From contig JALJCO010007141.1 in NCBI GenBank assembly GCA_023101725.1, positions 186,001 to 250,000 of the forward strand: a stretch of DNA of 64,000 nucleotides. The letters run 5' to 3'. The DNA is from Atherinomorus stipes. Its lineage: Eukaryota; Chordata; Actinopteri; Atheriniformes; Atherinidae. The position numbers and the translations under genes were made by a program. Each line of letters begins with the position of its first letter. Position 1 is the stretch's first letter. Below, piece by piece: positions 4,643-63,662 of the stretch. The notes beneath the pieces are model-generated. The model did no database searches. It had not been told where the DNA came from and saw nothing but the letters and a program-made list of their open reading frames with translations.

Positions 4643-4657
4643 AAATATTGGACAGCA

Positions 4658-5789
4658 GGGATCTGTATCTTGTGTGTGGTTGCTCTTGCGGTGTTGATGT
4701 CTTGGGTGCCCGTGTCTCGATGTGGATGCGGTGACGGTATATCTTTCAGCCCTAGTGTTGGGGTAGGTGTGTGGGGAGTGTGTGTGTGAGCGTGGTGGCG
4801 GGGTAGGGGGTGGTAGAGGTGGTGGCGCCCTGGTGTCAGGTGTGTGGGGCAGGGACGTTGGGGTGGGGGCTGGCCTGCCCTGGGGGGCGTCGTCTGGGGG
4901 GTCCGGTCCTCCTGGGTTTCAGTTGGGCCGCCCGGGTCCGGGGGGGGGGTGGCTGCTCCTGGGCGCTTGGGCCCTGGGCCCGGCGCCCGGTGGGGTCGGC
5001 AGCTGCTGGTCTTGGTCCGCTGGGGCCTGGGCCCCCAGACTGCAGGGGGCTCCGGCTGGGGCCGCCTTTTGCCGCCCTTCGGGGGATGCATGTCCGCTCT
5101 TTGGGGAGGGTAGCTGGGAATCTGGGCCTCTGGGTGGCTGCTGGGGGCCTGGGTCGTGAGCCTTGCGGGCTTCCTCCTCCTTGCAGAGACGAGGCTGCAT
5201 CTGCATGACTGTATCACCACGGAGCACCCTTTGTTATGCATGTTGACACTGTGACACTGCTTCCCATTGCGATGACTAGGTTGTACCTCTTCTCTACTTC
5301 CCATTGCGATGACCAGGTTGTACCTCTTCTCTGCGTAGTTCTGCGTGTGTTTGTATGATCTGAGGATATTTAAGCCACCTGCAGGTCCTCCTGTAGGGGA
5401 TTGCTTGATTTGTTTTCCAACAGAGACCTTGGTTGTTTAGGGATTGCTGTACAGATGTACCAGTGAACTGTGTAAGTGGATTCATGTTTTCTCTCCTCAC
5501 TCTGTTCCTCTTCCTTACTCCTTTCTCTCTGTTTCACTTTCTATCATTACCTCTGTTAACTTTCATTTCTCCCTTGTCAGGCCCAGCAGTATGAAATGGA
5601 ATGGTGTAATAGACAAATGTTTAAATTAATAAATAAAATGAATAAACATGATATCAAGTGGAGCCTTATGTTCATAAAGCTCCGCTTGGTAAAGCAAAAC
5701 TGTTCAACAGAATAAAGCAATCAGATTTCCATTCTGCTTGCTTCGATGCTGGACAGGACAAGAATAAAAAAAAAAAAAAAAAAAAAAAA
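4658..5789 (+). mobile_element. GC-rich poly(A) retroposon, copy 1 (5'-truncated)
   Basis: A 1.13-kb insertion ends in about 25 A residues and is bounded by a perfect 15-bp TSD, AAATATTGGACAGCA (4643-4657 and 5790-5804). The host sequence reads on across the insertion (a CCCAGC / TTGGGC-rich fish repeat). The 5' part (about 4750-5180) is very G-rich on the sense strand; the 3' 450 bp are ordinary AT-rich UTR-like sequence. It is homologous to the inverted, longer copy at 14952-18350, with the 3' ends about 95% alike by eye. Poly(A), a 15-bp TSD and 5' truncation point to target-primed reverse transcription by L1-type machinery. No RT is present. The 130-240-codon Gly/Trp or Pro-rich frames within are composition artefacts unless shown otherwise. 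Confidence 0.88.
5261..5334 (+). repeat. 37-bp tandem duplication inside the retroposon
   Basis: Two adjacent units begin TTCCCATTGCGATGAC at 5261 and 5298. The same duplication is present in the second copy at about 15400-15475, so it belongs to the family and is not a local event. Confidence 0.85.
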
Positions 5790-6311
5790 AAATATTGGAC
5801 AGCACACATGTTGGGCTAAATTGAACCAACACATTGAACCAACAACAATCAGGTTGTGTAGGAGCAAAACACAATAGTGTTTTGAATTCTAAGTAGTGTT
5901 GCTTTCGTCAACTAAAATTATGACGAAATATCTTCGTCAACGAACCTTTATCACGTGACGAAAACAAGACGAGACGAAATGTTAATCGTGGTCTTATGAC
6001 GAGAACTGTAATCAAATACAATGTTGATGAATAAAAACTAGACTAAATGTGGTTCACAAAACGAAAACTCTGCTAAAAATTTCATTCATTTTTATTAACT
6101 AAAAAGAGACGAGACGAAATAACGCTATAATGTTAAGTTGCATTATATTTTTCTGTTTCCTCGCACTGCTGCTCTGACCTCAGACGCAGGCGACATCAGT
6201 TCCTCAATCCCCTTTTCAAACTTGCGGCATTATTTAGATGCAGTGGGTCAAAGCAGTTTGTTGGAGTCAAACAGTGAGTTGGAGTCATGCCTGGGTTGTT
6301 GGGGAGAAAAC

Positions 6312-8085: not shown

Positions 8086-8162
8086 TGTGTATTATTTTTG
8101 TGTATCCACAACATTACACATTGAAATTTATGTTAATTAGCCCTAACTGGGGGCTTATTTAA

Positions 8163-8787
8163 AGGGGAACTTTGTTTTTTTTCCAATCTGGACCTATTTT
8201 CCAGCATGAAATATGTTCATTTACTCACCCAGACAGTTTTGGTGCAACTTGAATTCCTTCGGGAGATATTTAGATCCATCAAGATCAGCATATGCGCCAG
8301 TGATGGGGCAATTGTGTGCAGCCTCTAAATAAGGCATATAAATCCTTCATTTCACCAATGTTTTGCTATGAAACATTAGTCGGACCCCCCTGTGAGCTCA
8401 AAGCGGCTTTTTTCGTGGTGATTCTTCATTATTTACAGACGTTTCCTTATTATGGTGTCGCATAATTGTGACGTCATCAAAGCTGTTGCAGTAAAAAAAG
8501 ACTGTAAACACGGATGAATCACCATAAAATAGCCACTTTGATCTCACAGGGGGAGTCCGGCTAAAGTTTCATAGCAAAACATTGGTGAAATGAAGGATTT
8601 ATATGCCTTATTTAGAGGCTGCACGCGGTTGCTCGTCACTGCCATTCTATCATGCATACGCTGATCTGGAGTGGATCTAAATATCTCCTGACGGAATTCA
8701 AGTTGCACCAAAACTATCTGGGTGAGTAAATTAACATATTTCATGCTAGAAAAAAGGCTCAGATTGAAAAAAACCTGAAGTTCCCCT
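8163..8787. mobile_element. TTAA-flanked foldback MITE with about 270-bp arms
   Basis: TTAA (8159-8162 and 8788-8791) flanks the ends AGGGGAACTT and AAGTTCCCCT. The arms, about 8163-8428 and 8512-8787, are inverted copies of each other at roughly 85-90% by eye, separated by an 80-bp loop. TTAA targets are typical of piggyBac and Kolobok elements. The 93-codon minus frame inside is a shadow of the arm. Confidence 0.85.
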
Positions 8788-8794
8788 TTAATCA

Positions 8795-12833: not shown

Positions 12834-13737
12834 ATGTGGTCATTTATTCATTTATTTAAATTACATGAATCCTACATGAGTGGGTTTTCTTCTGTGCCCA
12901 CAGGTGGGATAATTAACACAATATTAACAGAGCAGTTGTGGGGATGTAAAGTAATCAGAAGAGCTGCAATAACCACTTTTTTTCTTCCTTTTTATGATTA
13001 CTGTACCTAAAACTAAAGAAATGATTAAAACTATTGTACTGTATCAAGTCCTGCAGTAAATGGTAAGTAGACTATATTTCCAGCCATTTTCAGTAAATTG
13101 CTTCTACACTATGAGTTACATTCACACACTTGGCAGTCATCATGAGGTTCAGTGTATCACTCAAAGACACATTCTTTGTTGATGAAGTCAAAATTCAAAC
13201 CACCAACCTTCTGATTACCAGAAGACAACCCTGCCATCTGAACTAGTCACTGCAGTATTACTCCACTGCTGAGCTTCCCTGTTTAGCCATCAGCTTCAAG
13301 TATGACACACAACAGTTTGGAGACATGTAGAGTTATTCCAATATTTAAACTGATCAATTAACTGGAACTGGTCCTAGCTGTCCCTCATCTGCCTCCGGGT
13401 ATCTAACTCCTGCATTTCCCTCCCTCCTCCCAATGGAGGTGATTGGATGGGGAGTGGGTGGGTTGGAGTCAGAGGTCCTCAGTGTTCCATTTAAAGTTTT
13501 AGAAATAGTTCAACTAGAAGTATGAAAAATGCAAAAAGATTTCATATGGCATTGCTGAACAACCCAAAAATATTCTGGGTAAATTTTGTCCCTACGACAG
13601 ATTCACTTAGAAACTATTTGATTTTCTGCAAAATTCCCTCTCAGAATCCTTCCAGTCCCAGTCTATCTGTGCTGCAGCTCAGAGTCAGACACGTAACGCA
13701 CATTACATGATGCTGACTCTCAGTGGTACATTCATTC
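12834..13737. other. Unassigned DNA with possible tRNA-like SINE trace
   Basis: Around 13190-13260 the sequence ATTCAAACCACCAACCTTC followed by a CTGATTACCAGA block resembles, on the minus strand, a decayed tRNA-like B-box region. This is too weak to call a SINE. No coding signal. Confidence 0.3.
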
Positions 13738-13832
13738 ATTCATCCAGCCTTCATTCCATCTATCCATATATCCATCCATCCATCCATCCATCCATCCATC
13801 CATCCATCCATCCATCCATCCATCCATCCATC
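13738..13832. repeat. (CATC)n microsatellite
   Basis: Pure CATC repeats from about 13766 to 13831, with degenerate flanks to the left. It lies just left of the duplicated 1.1-kb block. Confidence 0.95.
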
Positions 13833-13856
13833 GGTCTGTCCACTCAACACACCTGA

Positions 13857-14945
13857 CTCAAATTAAATGGCTCCAACAGTCTGAAGTTCTGCACCATAAC
13901 TCCATCTTTAATCACCTGATGTAAACATCTTTCTGTGCATGTCAGAGAGGACCATTCTGCTTAAATGTTAGCTCACATACACACCATATAGGAATAGGAT
14001 AATTCCCCTGTAAACTGCTACCCTGATATCTTAAACTGGAATGATTTCATTCTGAATGGGGGAAAAAGTCTCTATGTAAACATGTCAATGATGGAGGTTC
14101 CTTAAGCTGACTTCAGTTCGCATCCATTGCCCACTTGACTGTACAGAGGCATCCCAGTACAAATCAGCTTTGTACTGGGATGCCCCTTCAACCCACCAGT
14201 TGAAGTGGTGGGAGAGAAGATGATAATCCTGCAGGTTTATAATTACCTGACATCTGCATCAGGAGATCTATAATGACAGCCCCCTCCTCACCACCCTACA
14301 CTGACAGCACTACAGAGCAGCGACAGGCTGCTGCACCAAAGCATGAAGGAGCCCTGAATCCTGCAGCAGTTAGACTGGAAACCAGCACTGCTCCCGGCAG
14401 ACCACAAACACTAAACTAACACACCATAAAACCCAATATAATTGATTAATGTACAAACATAGAGCCCTATGAAATCCGCGCTCACGGAATCACAGAATTG
14501 AACATTAAAAACGGAATTTATTATAAACGCGGAATGTCACGGAAATGAGCAACGATTTCCAAAAATGTTTTTTCTTTATTAAAAGGGAAAGCTTTGCCCG
14601 GAAAAATGCTCCAAGGGGGGGTCACTAGGCTGCAGAGCGCACCCACCCCGTGCGTGGGTCCACGAGGAAGCCCTGCGGTGTGGCTTCACCAGCTTTCCTC
14701 CTGGTTATTTAGCCAGACCGACCTCCGTAGGCGTTTGCTCTTTGATCACCTTTCTGGTTGTTGCGCATCTACTGGTAAATTAAACGCAGCCTATAAACAT
14801 CTCGTCATCAGGTGTCACATAGTTAAAAGTGAGATTTTCTCCGCTTCGACTTGGTGCTGCAGGTTTGGACGTAACGCTGATGTTTCAGAGTAAAACGTGA
14901 TTCAGAGTCTGCACAAAGTGTTTCATTTTAAAAATTGGCCGGATC

Positions 14946-14951
<6 letters not shown>
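13857..14951 (+). repeat. 1.1-kb direct repeat, copy A (giant TSD candidate)
   Basis: Begins CTCAAATTAAATGG and ends GGATCAACTTT. It is repeated at 18351-19447 with only three differences that I can find: G/T near 14612, and two single-base insertions in copy B (near 19306 and 19342). Copy A passes directly into the oligo(T) of the retroposon at 14952-18350, and copy B starts directly at the retroposon's other end. Copy A contains the left 492 bp of the hAT-like element whose full length (18954-20675) is seen only with copy B. See findings. Confidence 0.95.
14150..14182 (+). other. Perfect 14-bp hairpin
   Basis: CATCCCAGTACAAA and its exact complement are separated by five bases (TCAGC). The same hairpin lies in copy B at 18644-18676. 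No oligo(T) follows, so it is not a Pol III terminator; function unknown. Confidence 0.7.
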
Positions 14952-14980
<29 letters not shown>

Positions 14981-17900
14981 GTCCTGTCCAGCATGAAGCA
15001 AGCAGAATGGAAATTGATTGCTTTATTCTGTTGAACAGTTTTGCTTTATAGCGGGCTTTATGAACATAAGGCTCCACTTGATATCATGTTTATTCATTTT
15101 ATTTCTTTATTTAAACATTTGTCTATTACGCCATTCCATTTCATACTGCTGGGCTGAAAGGGAGAAATGAAAGTGAATAGAGGTAATGATAGAAAGTGAA
15201 ACAGAGAGAGAGGAGTAAGGAAGAGGAAGAGAGAGAGAAGAGAAAACATGAATCCACTTACACAGTTCACTGGTACCTCTGTACCGCGATCCCTAAACAA
15301 CCAAGGTCTCTGTGGAAAACAAAACCAGCAATCCCCTAAGGAGGACCTGCAGGTGGCTTAAATATCCTCAGATCATACAAACACACGCAGAACTACGCAG
15401 AGAAGAGGTACAACCTAGTAGCGCAATGGGAAGTAGAGAAGAGGTACGACCTAGTCATCGCAATGGGAAGCAGTGTCACAGTGTCAACATGCATAATAAA
15501 GGGTGCTCCGTGGTGATACAGTCATGCAGATGCAGCCTCGTTCTGCAAGGAGGAGGAGCCCGCAAGGCTGCGACCCAGGCCCCCAGCAGCCACCCAGAGG
15601 CCCAGATCCCGCTACCCCCCCAAGAGCGGACATGCATCCCCCGAAGGGCGGCAAAGGCGGCCCCAGCCGGAGCCCCGCAGTCTGGAGGCCCAGGCCCCAG
15701 CGGACCAAGACCAGCAGCTGCCGACCCCACCGGGCGCCGGGCGTCCCGGAGCGGAGACAGCGCCGGGCCCAGGGCCAAGCGCCCAGGAGCAGCCACCCCC
15801 CCCGGACCCGGGCGGCCCCCGAAACCCAGGAGGACCGGACCCCCAGCGGCGCCCCCAGGGCAGGCCAGCCCCCCCCCCAAAGTCCCTGCCCCATACACCT
15901 GACACCAGGGCGCCACCACCTCTCCCACCCCTACCCCGCCACCACGCTCACACACACACTCACACACACCTACCCCAACACTGGGGCTGAAAGATATCCG
16001 TCGCCGCCCCCACAGAGACACAGGCACCCAAGACATCAATACCGCAAGAGCAACCACATACAAGATACAGATCCCCCTGCGCCCGCCCCGCACAAAAAAC
16101 CCCGGAAGCCACAAACAAAACCGCACCCCCCACAAGCGCCCGGCCCCCACCCCGCAGCCACACCGCACCGCACGACACCAAGTGCGGCACGAATACCGAG
16201 GTACGACCTCCGCCCACCCGCCCGCCCACCCCCTCCGTGTCCCCCCCAAACATACCCCACTCCGTGCACATCCCACCTCCCCTCTCCACCCCGCACTCTC
16301 CTCCCCACCGTCCACCTACCCCCACCTCCCTCCCTTAACCACATGCACTCCCACATACTGCACCACCCCTCCCCACCCCCCCAACTCGCCCCCACCTCCC
16401 TATACCCCCAATACCCCTGTCCCCCTACAGGCCCCGCCCTCCTTGCCTATACACTCCGCCCTCCTTCCTGCCCCTACGACCATCCTATAGACCTCACGCA
16501 TGCCCTCCTTCCTCCTCCCCCTTTCTTAACCACTACCCACTTCCTCCCTCTTCAGCCCAAGTTCCTCCCTCCCATTTCCTTTCTTATTTTTCTCACTACC
16601 CCCTCACTCTGCCCATGCCCTCGTGCCTCCTGGTGGTAGCTCGGGCCGGGGAAGGGCCGCGAGTTCCAAGCCCCCAACCGTTCCCCCCCCACCACCCCCC
16701 CCTCCCCCACCCCCGGCGCAGCAGGCCAGGCATCCCCCAGGCCAGCAGATCCCCCGCAATGCAGCCAGCCTTAACCACTGGCGCGTGAAGTAGCCACTGT
16801 CCCCCCTCCCCAGAGCGCCCGGGAGACCGGGGTATGAAAGGACCCTGTCCCCCCCCACTCCCCACTAGACTGTGTGTGTAAGATGTGTGTTGTTTGCAGT
16901 TAAAATAAGGGGCAGTGCAAGTCATGCCGGGAGTGGGGTCGCGTAGGGGGCATGTCCCCCCAACCGGCCCCTCCCTCCTACCACACACTATATGGCCCGC
17001 CCCTCAGAAGTGGTTGTGGCTGTTGTTATTTTATGTGTTTAGGTGTCTAAGTGTGGTTAAAACTGGGGAGCAGGCTGCCTCTAGACGTGGCAAGCAAAGG
17101 CACTTTGGTGCCCTCCCTCACCACGCCCGCTTGACACGCTCCCTCCCCAAAACCCTGGTGTGTGTGTGGGTAGAGAGGGGGGGGGGGGGGGGGTCTTGGG
17201 AGGGGAGACCAGGGGGGTATGAATTCCCCCCTGGAAGAAGAGCCGTTACCGGCATTAGGTCCCCTGCCCCCGGGTCCCCCAGGGCAGAAAGGGCAGGCAT
17301 GGCCGCCCCCACGGCCCGGCGTCCGGCGTTCAGCACAGAGGGGCCAGCCTCAGCCCCTGGGGGCGCTCGACCACGCCAGGCCAGGGAGGGGGAAAAGGGA
17401 CGGAAGCGGAAAGGGTCGGCGGAGGGGCCAGAGTCACCGGCCCAACATCCCAGGCTCGCAAACCCCCGAGGCAGAGGCTGCTTTTTTTTTTTTTTTTTTT
17501 TTCTTTTTCTTTTTCTCCCCCTTTCCTCCCCCCCCAACCTGACACACACAAACCCCACCAATGCACCACCACCCCCGCACCCAAACACCCATCATCCATG
17601 CACCCCCACCCACCCACCCATCTCCACAACCCCCCACAGGCAGCCACACACACACACAACCGCATTCACGCCCCCCTCCAGTCACACACCCACCCACACA
17701 TACCAAGGACGAGGACCGCGGGGCCACCCAGCCCCCCCCACGCCACAAGTCCACCGCCCCCAGCCCCCGGACCACGCGAGACCAACCCGTACGAGACCAC
17801 CAGCGCAGGCCAGCCCCAACCGACACAGTGGCCAGGCGGGACAGGCACCCGGCGTGGAAAAGACCCGGCCACCCCGCAACCCCCCACCTCCACACACTAG

Positions 17901-18350
17901 AGCTGAACGATATGGACAAAACCCCACACCCCGACAGCCACGCCAGACACCCCAACATCGATACGACACGACATGACCACGGGTCCGCCGAAAACCAAGC
18001 ACCCCGGCGGAAAGCGCAGCTCCGTCCGCGACCCCCAGAGCCCCACACGCAGGACAAGCACAGGGGAAATCCCACCCCCCACATGGCCGCTCCCGCGACA
18101 CCAACATCCCGGATGCCCACATCCCGACACAGACACGACAACGATACACCCCCCAGCCCCACCACACACACACCCCCCACCAGCACACACACCCGCACGC
18201 ACACAGCAGAGGCGCCCCGGCGCAGTGACTAGGCGTCACCAGGTCGTGAGGACCGGCCAAATCAGAGGAGGCACGTCCCGCCGGCCCGCCCCCCCAGCGC
18301 CAAGCCGGGTCCCCCGGCCCCGGAGGCAGGGGCCACCCCGGAGCCCACCC
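14952..18350 (-). mobile_element. GC-rich poly(A) retroposon, copy 2 (3.4 kb)
   Basis: On the minus strand this element runs from a G-rich 5' end at 18350 to a 3' poly(A) seen as T residues at 14952-14976. Its 3' 1.1 kb is homologous to copy 1 (4658-5789), including the 37-bp tandem duplication. The 5' 2.3 kb are new: strongly G-rich on the sense strand, with a 17-base C/G homopolymer at 17177-17193, an oligo(T)/pyrimidine tract at 17472-17525 and many GTGTGTG tracts. A GCTGAA-GATAT block followed by similar sequence occurs twice (about 15985-16055 and 17900-17970), suggesting internal duplication. Overlapping frames of up to 378 codons on both strands are Pro/His- or Gly/Trp-rich and contain no RT, endonuclease or gag-like motif, so I do not annotate them as genes. 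It is probably non-autonomous and mobilised by an L1-type enzyme. Confidence 0.8.
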
Positions 18351-19447
18351 CTCAAATTAAATGGCTCCAACAGTCTGAAGTTCTGCACCATAACTCCATC
18401 TTTAATCACCTGATGTAAACATCTTTCTGTGCATGTCAGAGAGGACCATTCTGCTTAAATGTTAGCTCACATACACACCATATAGGAATAGGATAATTCC
18501 CCTGTAAACTGCTACCCTGATATCTTAAACTGGAATGATTTCATTCTGAATGGGGGAAAAAGTCTCTATGTAAACATGTCAATGATGGAGGTTCCTTAAG
18601 CTGACTTCAGTTCGCATCCATTGCCCACTTGACTGTACAGAGGCATCCCAGTACAAATCAGCTTTGTACTGGGATGCCCCTTCAACCCACCAGTTGAAGT
18701 GGTGGGAGAGAAGATGATAATCCTGCAGGTTTATAATTACCTGACATCTGCATCAGGAGATCTATAATGACAGCCCCCTCCTCACCACCCTACACTGACA
18801 GCACTACAGAGCAGCGACAGGCTGCTGCACCAAAGCATGAAGGAGCCCTGAATCCTGCAGCAGTTAGACTGGAAACCAGCACTGCTCCCGGCAGACCACA
18901 AACACTAAACTAACACACCATAAAACCCAATATAATTGATTAATGTACAAACATAGAGCCCTATGAAATCCGCGCTCACGGAATCACAGAATTGAACATT
19001 AAAAACGGAATTTATTATAAACGCGGAATGTCACGGAAATGAGCAACGATTTCCAAAAATGTTTTTTCTTTATTAAAAGGGAAAGCTTTGCCCGGAAAAA
19101 TGCTCCAAGTGGGGGTCACTAGGCTGCAGAGCGCACCCACCCCGTGCGTGGGTCCACGAGGAAGCCCTGCGGTGTGGCTTCACCAGCTTTCCTCCTGGTT
19201 ATTTAGCCAGACCGACCTCCGTAGGCGTTTGCTCTTTGATCACCTTTCTGGTTGTTGCGCATCTACTGGTAAATTAAACGCAGCCTATAAACATCTCGTC
19301 ATCCAGGTGTCACATAGTTAAAAGTGAGATTTTCTCCGCTTACGACTTGGTGCTGCAGGTTTGGACGTAACGCTGATGTTTCAGAGTAAAACGTGATTCA
19401 GAGTCTGCACAAAGTGTTTCATTTTAAAAATTGGCCGGATCAACTTT
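18351..19447 (+). repeat. 1.1-kb direct repeat, copy B (giant TSD candidate)
   Basis: Second copy of 13857-14951, about 99.7% identical. At its right edge it continues without a break into the rest of the hAT-like element (GCTTTCTGTCGAC), so the original, uninterrupted order is preserved here. Confidence 0.95.
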
Positions 19448-19993
19448 GCTTTCTGTCGACTGACTTACTTCTATCCGCTCTGCTCTGGATGGACGCGGTT
19501 TCAAAGCAGCAGAATACAGGACAGAGCAGTTTCCCCATGATTATTAGCCTGTGTGTCCGGTGATCTAACCCGGACATGAGTTTCTTATGGTCTATGGTGT
19601 GGACCACCATCTGTAAATCAGTACTGTTCTGAATTATGTATTGTTTACTATAGACAAGTTTCACGGCCTAAACCATGGGAGCCGCCATGTCTGCTTGTTT
19701 CTGCCAATGGCTTCCGGTTACCACGGTTACAGATATTTTACACTGAGGACATACACAAATCAACAACTCACATAGGAAGAGCTCCCAAACTCGCTGACTG
19801 AAAAGTGGATATTGTTAAACCCAAAAAGCGGTCTTGGACATTTTGTGCCATACGTTGCTGCAGCAGCTTGTGAAAGCTATTAAATATGAACCTTGTAAAC
19901 GGAGCGAACTCACCATAGGACGGCAGCCACGCAGCTACATGACCGACCACTGGGTGCAGCCCGCTGTCTCAAACTCTCCATTCTCCCTAACTC

Positions 19994-20024
<31 letters not shown>

Positions 20025-20675
20025 ACTGTAACCACCACTCAAGCCTTCTGACAGGAATTATCCAGACACAGGCTCATTGAACATTTGTCTTCGTGGACAC
20101 TAAACTGCCGTGTGTATGTCGCTATCAACACACAGCCGACTGCGTCACTATGTAAGTCTATGGCGTTCCTGTTTATCACCAAAATATATTGCTAGTTGTA
20201 ACATCAGGTCATTTCATCATATTATCCTCCCAGTTCAGTGTAGTAGCAGATGAGGAAGTAATAAAACATGTTCTTTTATAAGAAATAAATGAGAATGTTA
20301 CCATTTTAGTGACGTCACTATTCAGTGTAAATGAATGCAGATATTATCGACTGAAAGCGCTTGGCAGAAATTGATTGACTGCGCAAGAAAAACGGAAATG
20401 TCCGTGAAACTTCTCTATTGGCTCTTTTTTTTTTTTTGGTTGTATAAACTTGTGCCATGTTTTTGCCTTAATTATGTTTAAAAGCGTGAAAGCATTTAAG
20501 TTGGTAATCATAACGGCATTAATTGGCTAAATTTAACTGTACACTGTATTGGTGTTGAATTTGTGTAAAATTTATAAAGACGGAATTCTCAAAAATCAAA
20601 AACGGGAAAACACCAAAAATGGGAAAAATTAAAACAGAATTTTAGAAAAAATTAAACAGATTTCATAGGGCTCTA
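18954..20675. mobile_element. hAT-like element, 1.72 kb, host of the retroposon
   Basis: The left end TAGAGCCCTATGAAATC is exactly inverted at the right end, GATTTCATAGGGCTCTA (20659-20675). Subterminal regions on both sides carry CGGAAT / ACGGAAATG motifs in opposite orientation. The flanking 8-mers do not match well, so the TSD is uncertain. A 28-base oligo(A) at 19994-20021 may mark another old insertion. The frame at 19834-20031 has no transposase motif. Confidence 0.65.
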
Positions 20676-62964: not shown

Positions 62965-63662
62965 ATGCTTTCAGGCGCAGCAAAACGTAAAAAGAAAAAA
63001 AATGAAGAGGAACAAAAGAAGAAACTGCGGGGGACTTTAGAGAAGTTTCTGTCGGGCAGCCGTTCGACCGCTGTGAACCTGCTCGAGTCGGCAGAGGGCG
63101 AACCAGGCCGGGAGACGGATGTGGTTGGAGACGCTGCGCTGTTGGCGCCGTCAGCTCTAGCCATTTCGTCGCCGACATCATCAGCAGCTCCGCCGCCATC
63201 TACATCAGCTGCTTCGCCGCCGTCAACACCTGCAGCTCCGCCGTCGACATCATCAGCAGCTCCGTTGCCGTCAACACCTGCAGCTCCGCCGCTGACATCA
63301 TCAGCAGCTCCGCTGCTGTCAACACCTGCAGCTCCGCCGCCGACATCATCAGCAGCTCCGCCGCCGTCAACACCTGCAGCTCTGCCGCTGACATCATCAG
63401 CAGCTCCGCTGCTGTCAACACCTGCAGCTCCGCCGCCGACATCATCAGCAGCTCCGCCGCCGTCAACACCTGCAGCTCCGCCACCGACATCATCAGCAGC
63501 TCCGCCGCCGTCAACACCTGCAGCTCCGCCGCCGACATCATCAGTAGCGCCATCACAGAAGTACAAAATTTTTGGTCACCCAATTCAGACTCATTTGCCT
63601 TGGCAGTCTGAGCAGGTAAAGAAAAGTGAAAAAAGTACTCCTGGTTCAACAAAAGGATCAAG
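62965..63662 (+). CDS. Candidate first coding exon, ZMYM/hAT-type protein
   Basis: The frame opens at ATG 62965 with a very basic start, MLSGAAKRKKKKNEEEQKKK then LRGTLEKFL, followed by about 120 residues of Ala/Pro/Ser/Thr repeat and a less biased tail, KYKIFGHPIQTHLPWQSEQV. A Lys-rich start ahead of a short K-x-x-x-L-x-K-F segment is typical of the first exon of zinc finger MYM-type 1-like and other hAT-derived proteins, where it would serve nuclear import; the TTF zinc finger and hAT domain would lie in later exons to the right. The exon can end at AG/GTATGT (63662) or at the stronger CAG/GTAAAG (63615). The next downstream exon is not identifiable: 63713-63835 is open in one frame but the phase does not fit. 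It could be a domesticated gene or a transposon copy. Confidence 0.5.
63178..63537 (+). repeat. 48-bp coding minisatellite, about seven units
   Basis: One 72-bp and six 48-bp units encode SSAAPPPSTPAAPPPT-like repeats. The period is a multiple of three and lacks stops in other frames, so two long minus-strand frames (62865-63566, Gly/Asp/Val-rich; 63200-63868, LMMSAAEL-rich) are open as well. The plus frame is preferred because it has the unrepeated basic start and a splice donor. Confidence 0.92.

Follow-up and report, generated by a model that had tools for sequence, protein, structure and literature searches.

In the 64,000-nucleotide stretch of Atherinomorus stipes DNA analysed here (the window), a retroposon lies between two direct copies of a 1.1-kb block of host DNA. 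This arrangement probably goes back to one insertion of a 5'-truncated LINE-1-clade element, since inherited, with a target-site duplication (TSD) of 1,095 bp. The TSD is about 70 times longer than usual, and the insertion is presumably a germline event.

Results

Duplicated block and inserted element

The repeat and the element between its copies consist of the following parts.

13857..14951, plus strand: copy A of the duplicated target block (the 3' TSD in the sense of the element), 1095 bp
18351..19447, plus strand: copy B of the duplicated target block (the 5' TSD in the sense of the element), 1097 bp
14952..18344, minus strand: 5'-truncated LINE-1-clade element, 3' part only, delimited by sibling alignment; sense strand G-rich, no coding domain found
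14949..14976, minus strand: poly(A) tail of the element, 28 T on the plus strand, the first three shared with copy A
18345..18350, minus strand: six extra bases, GGGTGG in the sense orientation, at the 5' junction; absent from siblings crossing this point

Copies A and B form a direct repeat with 99.7% identity over a full-length alignment (1095/1097 bp), a length and identity for which chance is no explanation. The element occupies 14952-18350, exactly the gap between them. A preliminary description of this DNA had reported a retroposon bounded exactly by a 1.1-kb direct repeat whose copies differ at three positions, and the end-to-end alignment bears out both statements. The differences are one substitution (G at 14616 in A, T at 19110 in B) and two 1-bp indels, single bases absent from A after 14808 and after 14846; all three lie in the part of the block that belongs to a hAT element. 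The minus-strand orientation, with the poly(A) side against the end of A, was likewise correct (poly(T) at 14949-14976). The claim that the 5' side of the element abuts B holds in part: the inserted sequence adjoins 18351, but its first six bases, GGGTGG, are not family sequence. Each copy of the block also contains an imperfect hairpin of 43 nt that is 88% self-complementary (14145-14187 and 18639-18681).

Including the six extra bases the element is 3399 bp long, with the 28-T run at its plus-strand left end. The species' own genome assembly (1.18 Gb) was searched with the 3' part of the element, which gave 1636 first-look candidates; the best 40 were scored, and 20 larger stretches, holding the 21 best-scoring other matches of the 40, were analysed. 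Sequence upstream of the point where the element stops was present in 11 of the 12 listed copies, and about 3.0 to 4.65 kb of it was common to eight of those 11. In sibling L032 this upstream part contains an open frame of 609 aa that matched RVT_1 (E 9.8e-10) and human L1 ORF2p (8sxt; E 4.1e-48), so that a longer copy encodes an L1-type ORF2 reverse transcriptase. Poly(A) tails of 13-46 A were found by script in 22 copies examined, and the sibling start points are staggered; a poly(A) tail with variable 5' truncation is the second L1-clade trait present. Judged from these alignments, the element is a 5'-truncated L1-clade copy consisting of the 3' part of its family. The letters GGGTGG were seen in none of the 11 siblings that cross the 5' end of the element (the twelfth listed copy, L050, stops just short of it), and the same hexamer recurs 11 bases further into the element.

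Two reading frames of the element, one of 278 aa, gave no Pfam match, and no protein relative of the 278-aa frame was found at E 0.001 among 7989 scored candidates. There was no Rfam match at the gathering threshold. Pattern searches for the element or for the repeat at the left boundary of A returned 0 matches in each of 3 scans of viral contigs, and a pattern search for the element in genome_contigs returned 0 matches. A candidate internal duplication of 1.9 kb within the element was rejected, its local alignment score of 209 lying close to the shuffled mean (205, sd 13, largest 242).

Elsewhere in the window, open frames that pass the Pfam cut-off include a Tc1-type transposase and one reverse transcriptase; a second reverse transcriptase frame falls below it. 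A minisatellite at 63170-63548 has a 48-bp unit in about 8 copies and is open in several frames, and a long imperfect inverted self-repeat at 8159-8791 (81% over 654 columns) is perhaps a foldback element.

Identity of the element to the L033 reference is 92.7%. This does not make it old, as the difference consists nearly entirely of small deletions; with only 14 substitutions over 3361 aligned bases, the element is young. Substitution rates of 1e-8 to 3e-9 per site and year, applied to the one substitution per 1095 bp between A and B, date the duplication to roughly 46,000-152,000 years ago (95% range about 1,000-850,000), an estimate that is too low if gene conversion occurred between the copies.

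Target-site duplications of sibling copies

The window holds one other copy of the family.

4658..5792, plus strand: sibling copy of the studied element's family, with a 15-bp TSD, AAATATTGGACAGCA, at 4643-4657 and 5790-5804

A 15-bp TSD had been proposed for this copy, and it is present as described. Including this copy, 21 siblings of the element were examined, seven of which were not assessable: the 5' end lies outside the analysed stretch in L031, L033, L034, L040, L041 and L043, and L047 is multi-copy. Several nested or adjacent stretches of this L1 family lie within 10 kb at L047 (G000:C3134:226300-236200). TSDs of 8-17 bp were found by script in 13 of the 14 assessable copies, among which that of L045 is uncertain, the copy sitting in a tandem array, and that of L048 measures 8 bp by script and 12 bp by eye. 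In the one remaining copy, L050, any TSD is at most 6 bp and not clear, and its available flanks share no long repeat. Since 13 of 14 assessable siblings have short TSDs, the kilobase duplication is an accident and not a habit of this L1 family; the sample, made up of the window's other copy and the better-scoring half of the 40 scored matches, is biased to young copies.

Ancestral order of the locus

Outside the repeat we call the sequence to the left of A L, and that to the right of B R. Three features cross or mark these outer junctions.

13845..13890 (end approximate), plus strand: dispersed repeat crossing the L-A junction, CAACACACCTGA followed by CTCAAATTAAATGG, continuous in L052, L053 and L042
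14461..14951, plus strand: severed left part of a hAT element inside copy A, from a terminus search
18955..20674, plus strand: hAT-type element, complete by its termini, crossing the B-R junction; 17-bp exact inverted match at the ends

At the L-A junction the letters CAACACACCTGA and CTCAAATTAAATGG are unchanged in L053 and nearly so in L052, L042 has TTTGACTCAAATTAAAT, and L054, the fourth copy of the repeat, has diverged at this point. The B-R junction reads ACTTT on its left and GCTTTC on its right, and lies within the hAT element. The left end of the hAT is at about 14461 in A and about 18955 in B, and its right end, at 20674, is found only downstream of B, as foreseen in the preliminary description, where the block was said to span a hAT terminus with only the left part in A and the whole continuing from B. 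The hAT is flanked by an 8-bp repeat with one mismatch (ACAAACAT/ACATACAT). A second contig, C7266, is collinear with B and R over its first 4.5 kb and again at 26.5-27.7 kb. Because the dispersed repeat crosses the L-A junction elsewhere in the genome, and the hAT and C7266 both cross the B-R junction, the ancestral locus is best reconstructed as L-block-R, in which case the only new junctions are those between A and poly(T) and between the element and B.

Most genome-wide partial matches to the block begin near the hAT left end (query position about 625). Transposition of the hAT was rejected as the cause of the duplication, as neither block boundary is at a hAT end. The hAT also contains a run of 28 A at 19994-20021; a search for a TSD belonging to a separate poly(A) insertion there gave matches of 7 letters at most.

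No more than 2 letters are common to the end of A and the sequence that follows the element. With no second, short TSD around the element, the insertion and the duplication most likely happened together, as one event. Direct repeats of a once-single target directly flank the insertion with no further TSD, the arrangement that defines a TSD made by target-primed reverse transcription. A giant TSD had been the first explanation offered, and it is the best supported: the outer junctions are ancestral, a short TSD is lacking and the poly(A) site is T-rich. A tandem duplication with the element caught at the junction, also proposed earlier, would give the same order of parts, and nothing specific supports it. 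If the duplication came first, the element would have had to insert later at precisely the base pair where the two 1.1-kb copies meet, without a TSD, whereas a TSD is present in 13 of the 14 assessable siblings, and no element-free tandem copy was found among the scored matches. We regard this order of events as extremely unlikely.

Alleles of the locus in the assembly

An empty allele with a single block (L-block-R) was not seen among the scored matches from the species' own assembly (the best 40 for each query). The unique part of the block occurred three times, in A, B and C7266, among the best 40 of 1949 candidates, and L had one full-length occurrence among the best 40 of 5500 candidates. 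The first 30 bases of the block had two exact occurrences and another three with three mismatches, the latter being the dispersed-repeat copies L052-L054.

An assembly artefact had been put forward as a third explanation. The rival retained here is that a heterozygous L-A-element-R allele with a normal TSD was falsely joined to a contig starting with the block; we consider it unlikely, and it is weakened by the finding that A and B are more alike than the window and C7266. Several observations are in its favour. C7266 (49.9 kb) starts 3 bp after the start of the block and runs on into R, which places an assembler break at this point, and among the scored matches a second contig exists for R but not for L. 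The first 2 kb of C7266 are error-rich. The middle of the element looks poorly polished as well, with 138 small deletions relative to L033 crowded there, 67 of them in two adjacent 300-bp bins; three other siblings compared with L033 have 21 (L032), 21 (L037) and 27 (L041) in all. Over its central 701 bp, identity of the element to the 39 other scored copies is only 84-88%. The crowded deletions and this low identity are best read as poor local consensus.

Against a false join, the ends of the element are cleaner (counted in 300-bp bins, small deletions number 3 and 1 in the first two and 4 and 6 in the last two, compared to 36 and 31 in the worst), and the window contains no N. The contig break at the junction of the element and B could be caused by the high-copy repeat there, and a contig starting where C7266 does is also expected if the other haplotype too has that repeat directly to the left of B. 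Neither the six filler bases nor the truncation point common to the element and L050 is predicted by a false join.

The divergence between the copies was compared with that between haplotypes. In clean sequence the window and C7266 differ by 18/2467 to 27/3467 substitutions (0.73-0.78%), and A and B by 1/1095, fewer than expected between haplotypes (Fisher P 0.004-0.009, the range for four definitions of the clean sequence, its start chosen by the analyst). With the first clean part of C7266 alone, leaving out the second stretch (14/1201), the difference is weaker, P ranging from 0.014 to 0.14 with the start. The copies do not differ at the level of haplotypes, as a false haplotypic duplication would require. 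C7266 agrees with B at both 1-bp deletions in A; at the A/B substitution it has the letter of A together with an adjacent further difference, in noisy sequence. As A and B differ less than the window and C7266, they most likely lie on one haplotype.

Junctions and proposed mechanism

Two further features adjoin the ends of the duplicated target.

19444..19449, plus strand: presumed first-strand nick, CTTT/GC, the poly(A) priming site, from its likeness to tabulated L1 sites
13729..13832, plus strand: (CATC)n microsatellite, from Tandem Repeats Finder; its end is 24 bp short of the block's far boundary

L1 nick sites such as CTTT/a and GTTT/g have been tabulated (PMC5223499). The near site, CTTT/GC, matches only half of the consensus and is a plausible place for priming, though no statistical proof of it; among random positions 23% equal its score, and three T would be present at about 10% of random breakpoints. 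On the other strand at the far boundary, ATTT/GA lies at a distance of three bases. Counting sites up to 3 bases away, 29% of positions equal the best endonuclease-like score of that boundary, and 11% have TTT/R. Proximity of the microsatellite to this boundary is a post hoc observation; the fraction of the window within 25 bp is 0.7% for its two tetranucleotide arrays and 5.3% for any listed array.

The dispersed repeat across 13857 has another copy at L042 (G000:C2324) into which a sibling L1 has inserted, and the presumed nick in the 5' flank of that L1 is ATTT/GA. This L1 family appears to have used the ATTT/GA motif there. Insertion of the same family in that repeat would also be compatible with an unequal crossing-over between two insertions of one family in the same orientation, at 13857 and at 14951 on different chromosomes. 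Such an exchange yields the same anatomy with hidden short TSDs, and an AATT/AA site lies 8 bp inside the start of the block. It requires, however, two polymorphic insertions within 1.1 kb and a rare exchange; a site as good as AATT/AA is found at half of random starts, and neither single-insertion allele was among the scored matches in the assembly. The crossing-over is very unlikely in our estimate.

For the single insertion with a long TSD, the preferred course is that a stalled cDNA was captured by a distant DNA end. The L1 endonuclease would nick the plus strand at ACTTT/GC, and the T-rich end would prime reverse transcription on the poly(A) tail. The cDNA would stop after about 3.4 kb beside a G-quadruplex-forming run, presumably by stalling. 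Its end would then be joined, with six filler bases, to an end of the other strand or of a sister chromatid 1,095 bp away, against the usual 10-15 bp, and fill-in or replication may have left the whole 1.1-kb block on both sides. The distant end may have come from either source, as a nick in the other strand and a sister-chromatid end (the model of PMC7058536) would give the same product.

The truncation point of the element adjoins a predicted G-quadruplex motif, just downstream of the run. A second copy, L050 (G000:C641, at about 4710), is truncated at most 6 bp from this point at the same motif, and it is without a kilobase TSD. The six filler bases and the repeated hexamer fit error-prone end joining or slippage. 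We claim no microhomology at the 5' junction because the six extra bases intervene.

Discussion

The outcome itself is not new, since cell-culture work has already yielded kilobase TSDs both for L1 and for a LINE from zebrafish. The zebrafish element, ZfL2-2, is an L2-type LINE. In wild-type DT40 cells it produced a 1228-bp TSD in 1 of 25 insertions (PMC2666801). That event resembles the present one in its almost equal TSD length and in involving a fish LINE, and it took place in repair-proficient cells; it was recovered in a reporter assay, whereas here an L1-clade element is found in a genome assembly. For engineered human L1 in NER-deficient cells the median TSD is 1495 bp, and in HeLa cells TSDs over 100 bp are given for at most 10% of L1 events (PMC5223499). 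The NER-deficient events (18 with a direct duplication of more than 1 kb) share with ours a 5'-truncated L1, a poly(A) tail and a T-rich nick site, presumed in our case, but they concern a reporter element in cultured repair-deficient human cells (PMC5223499), and ours an insertion in a genome assembly. The longest TSDs reported in PMC5717806 measure 3450 bp in CSA-complemented cells and 29,902 bp in CSA-deficient ones, and extremely long TSDs have been tied to 5'-truncated L1 in HeLa cells (PMC2912911, citing earlier work).

L1-mediated tandem duplications in human tumours (PMC7058536) are alike in that one L1 event bridges both copies and a nick motif, presumed in our case, lies at the poly(A) side. 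The sister-chromatid model proposed there gives the geometry seen here, although its example is somatic and spans 22.6 Mb (PMC7058536). Ordinary insertions, with TSDs of 8-17 bp in the siblings and 8-18 bp for Alu in human sperm (PMC12633430), use the same kind of machinery, the siblings being of the same family; they differ from the present one in TSD length. We found no naturally occurring kilobase LINE TSD in fish in the titles and abstracts searched, a search that most subscription literature falls outside.

Recombination between long TSDs could remove an insertion, a possibility raised in PMC5223499. If so, there would be less reason to assume that clean loss of retroposon markers never occurs. 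It is conceivable, and in our view quite improbable, that G-quadruplex stalling in the G-rich 3' region of this family often leaves a long-lived cDNA end to be captured by distant ends, that kilobase duplications are a regular germline product, and that recombination between the TSDs erases such insertions without a scar. Erasure of this kind, if true, would hide how frequent kilobase duplications are.

The locus is a young example, found in a genome assembly, of what has been described in cultured cells and tumours, and independent sequence fixes its ancestral order at both ends. Loci of this kind are open to misreading as segmental duplications or assembly errors. A LINE can duplicate a kilobase of host DNA, and here part of a hAT element was copied and a severed end left behind.
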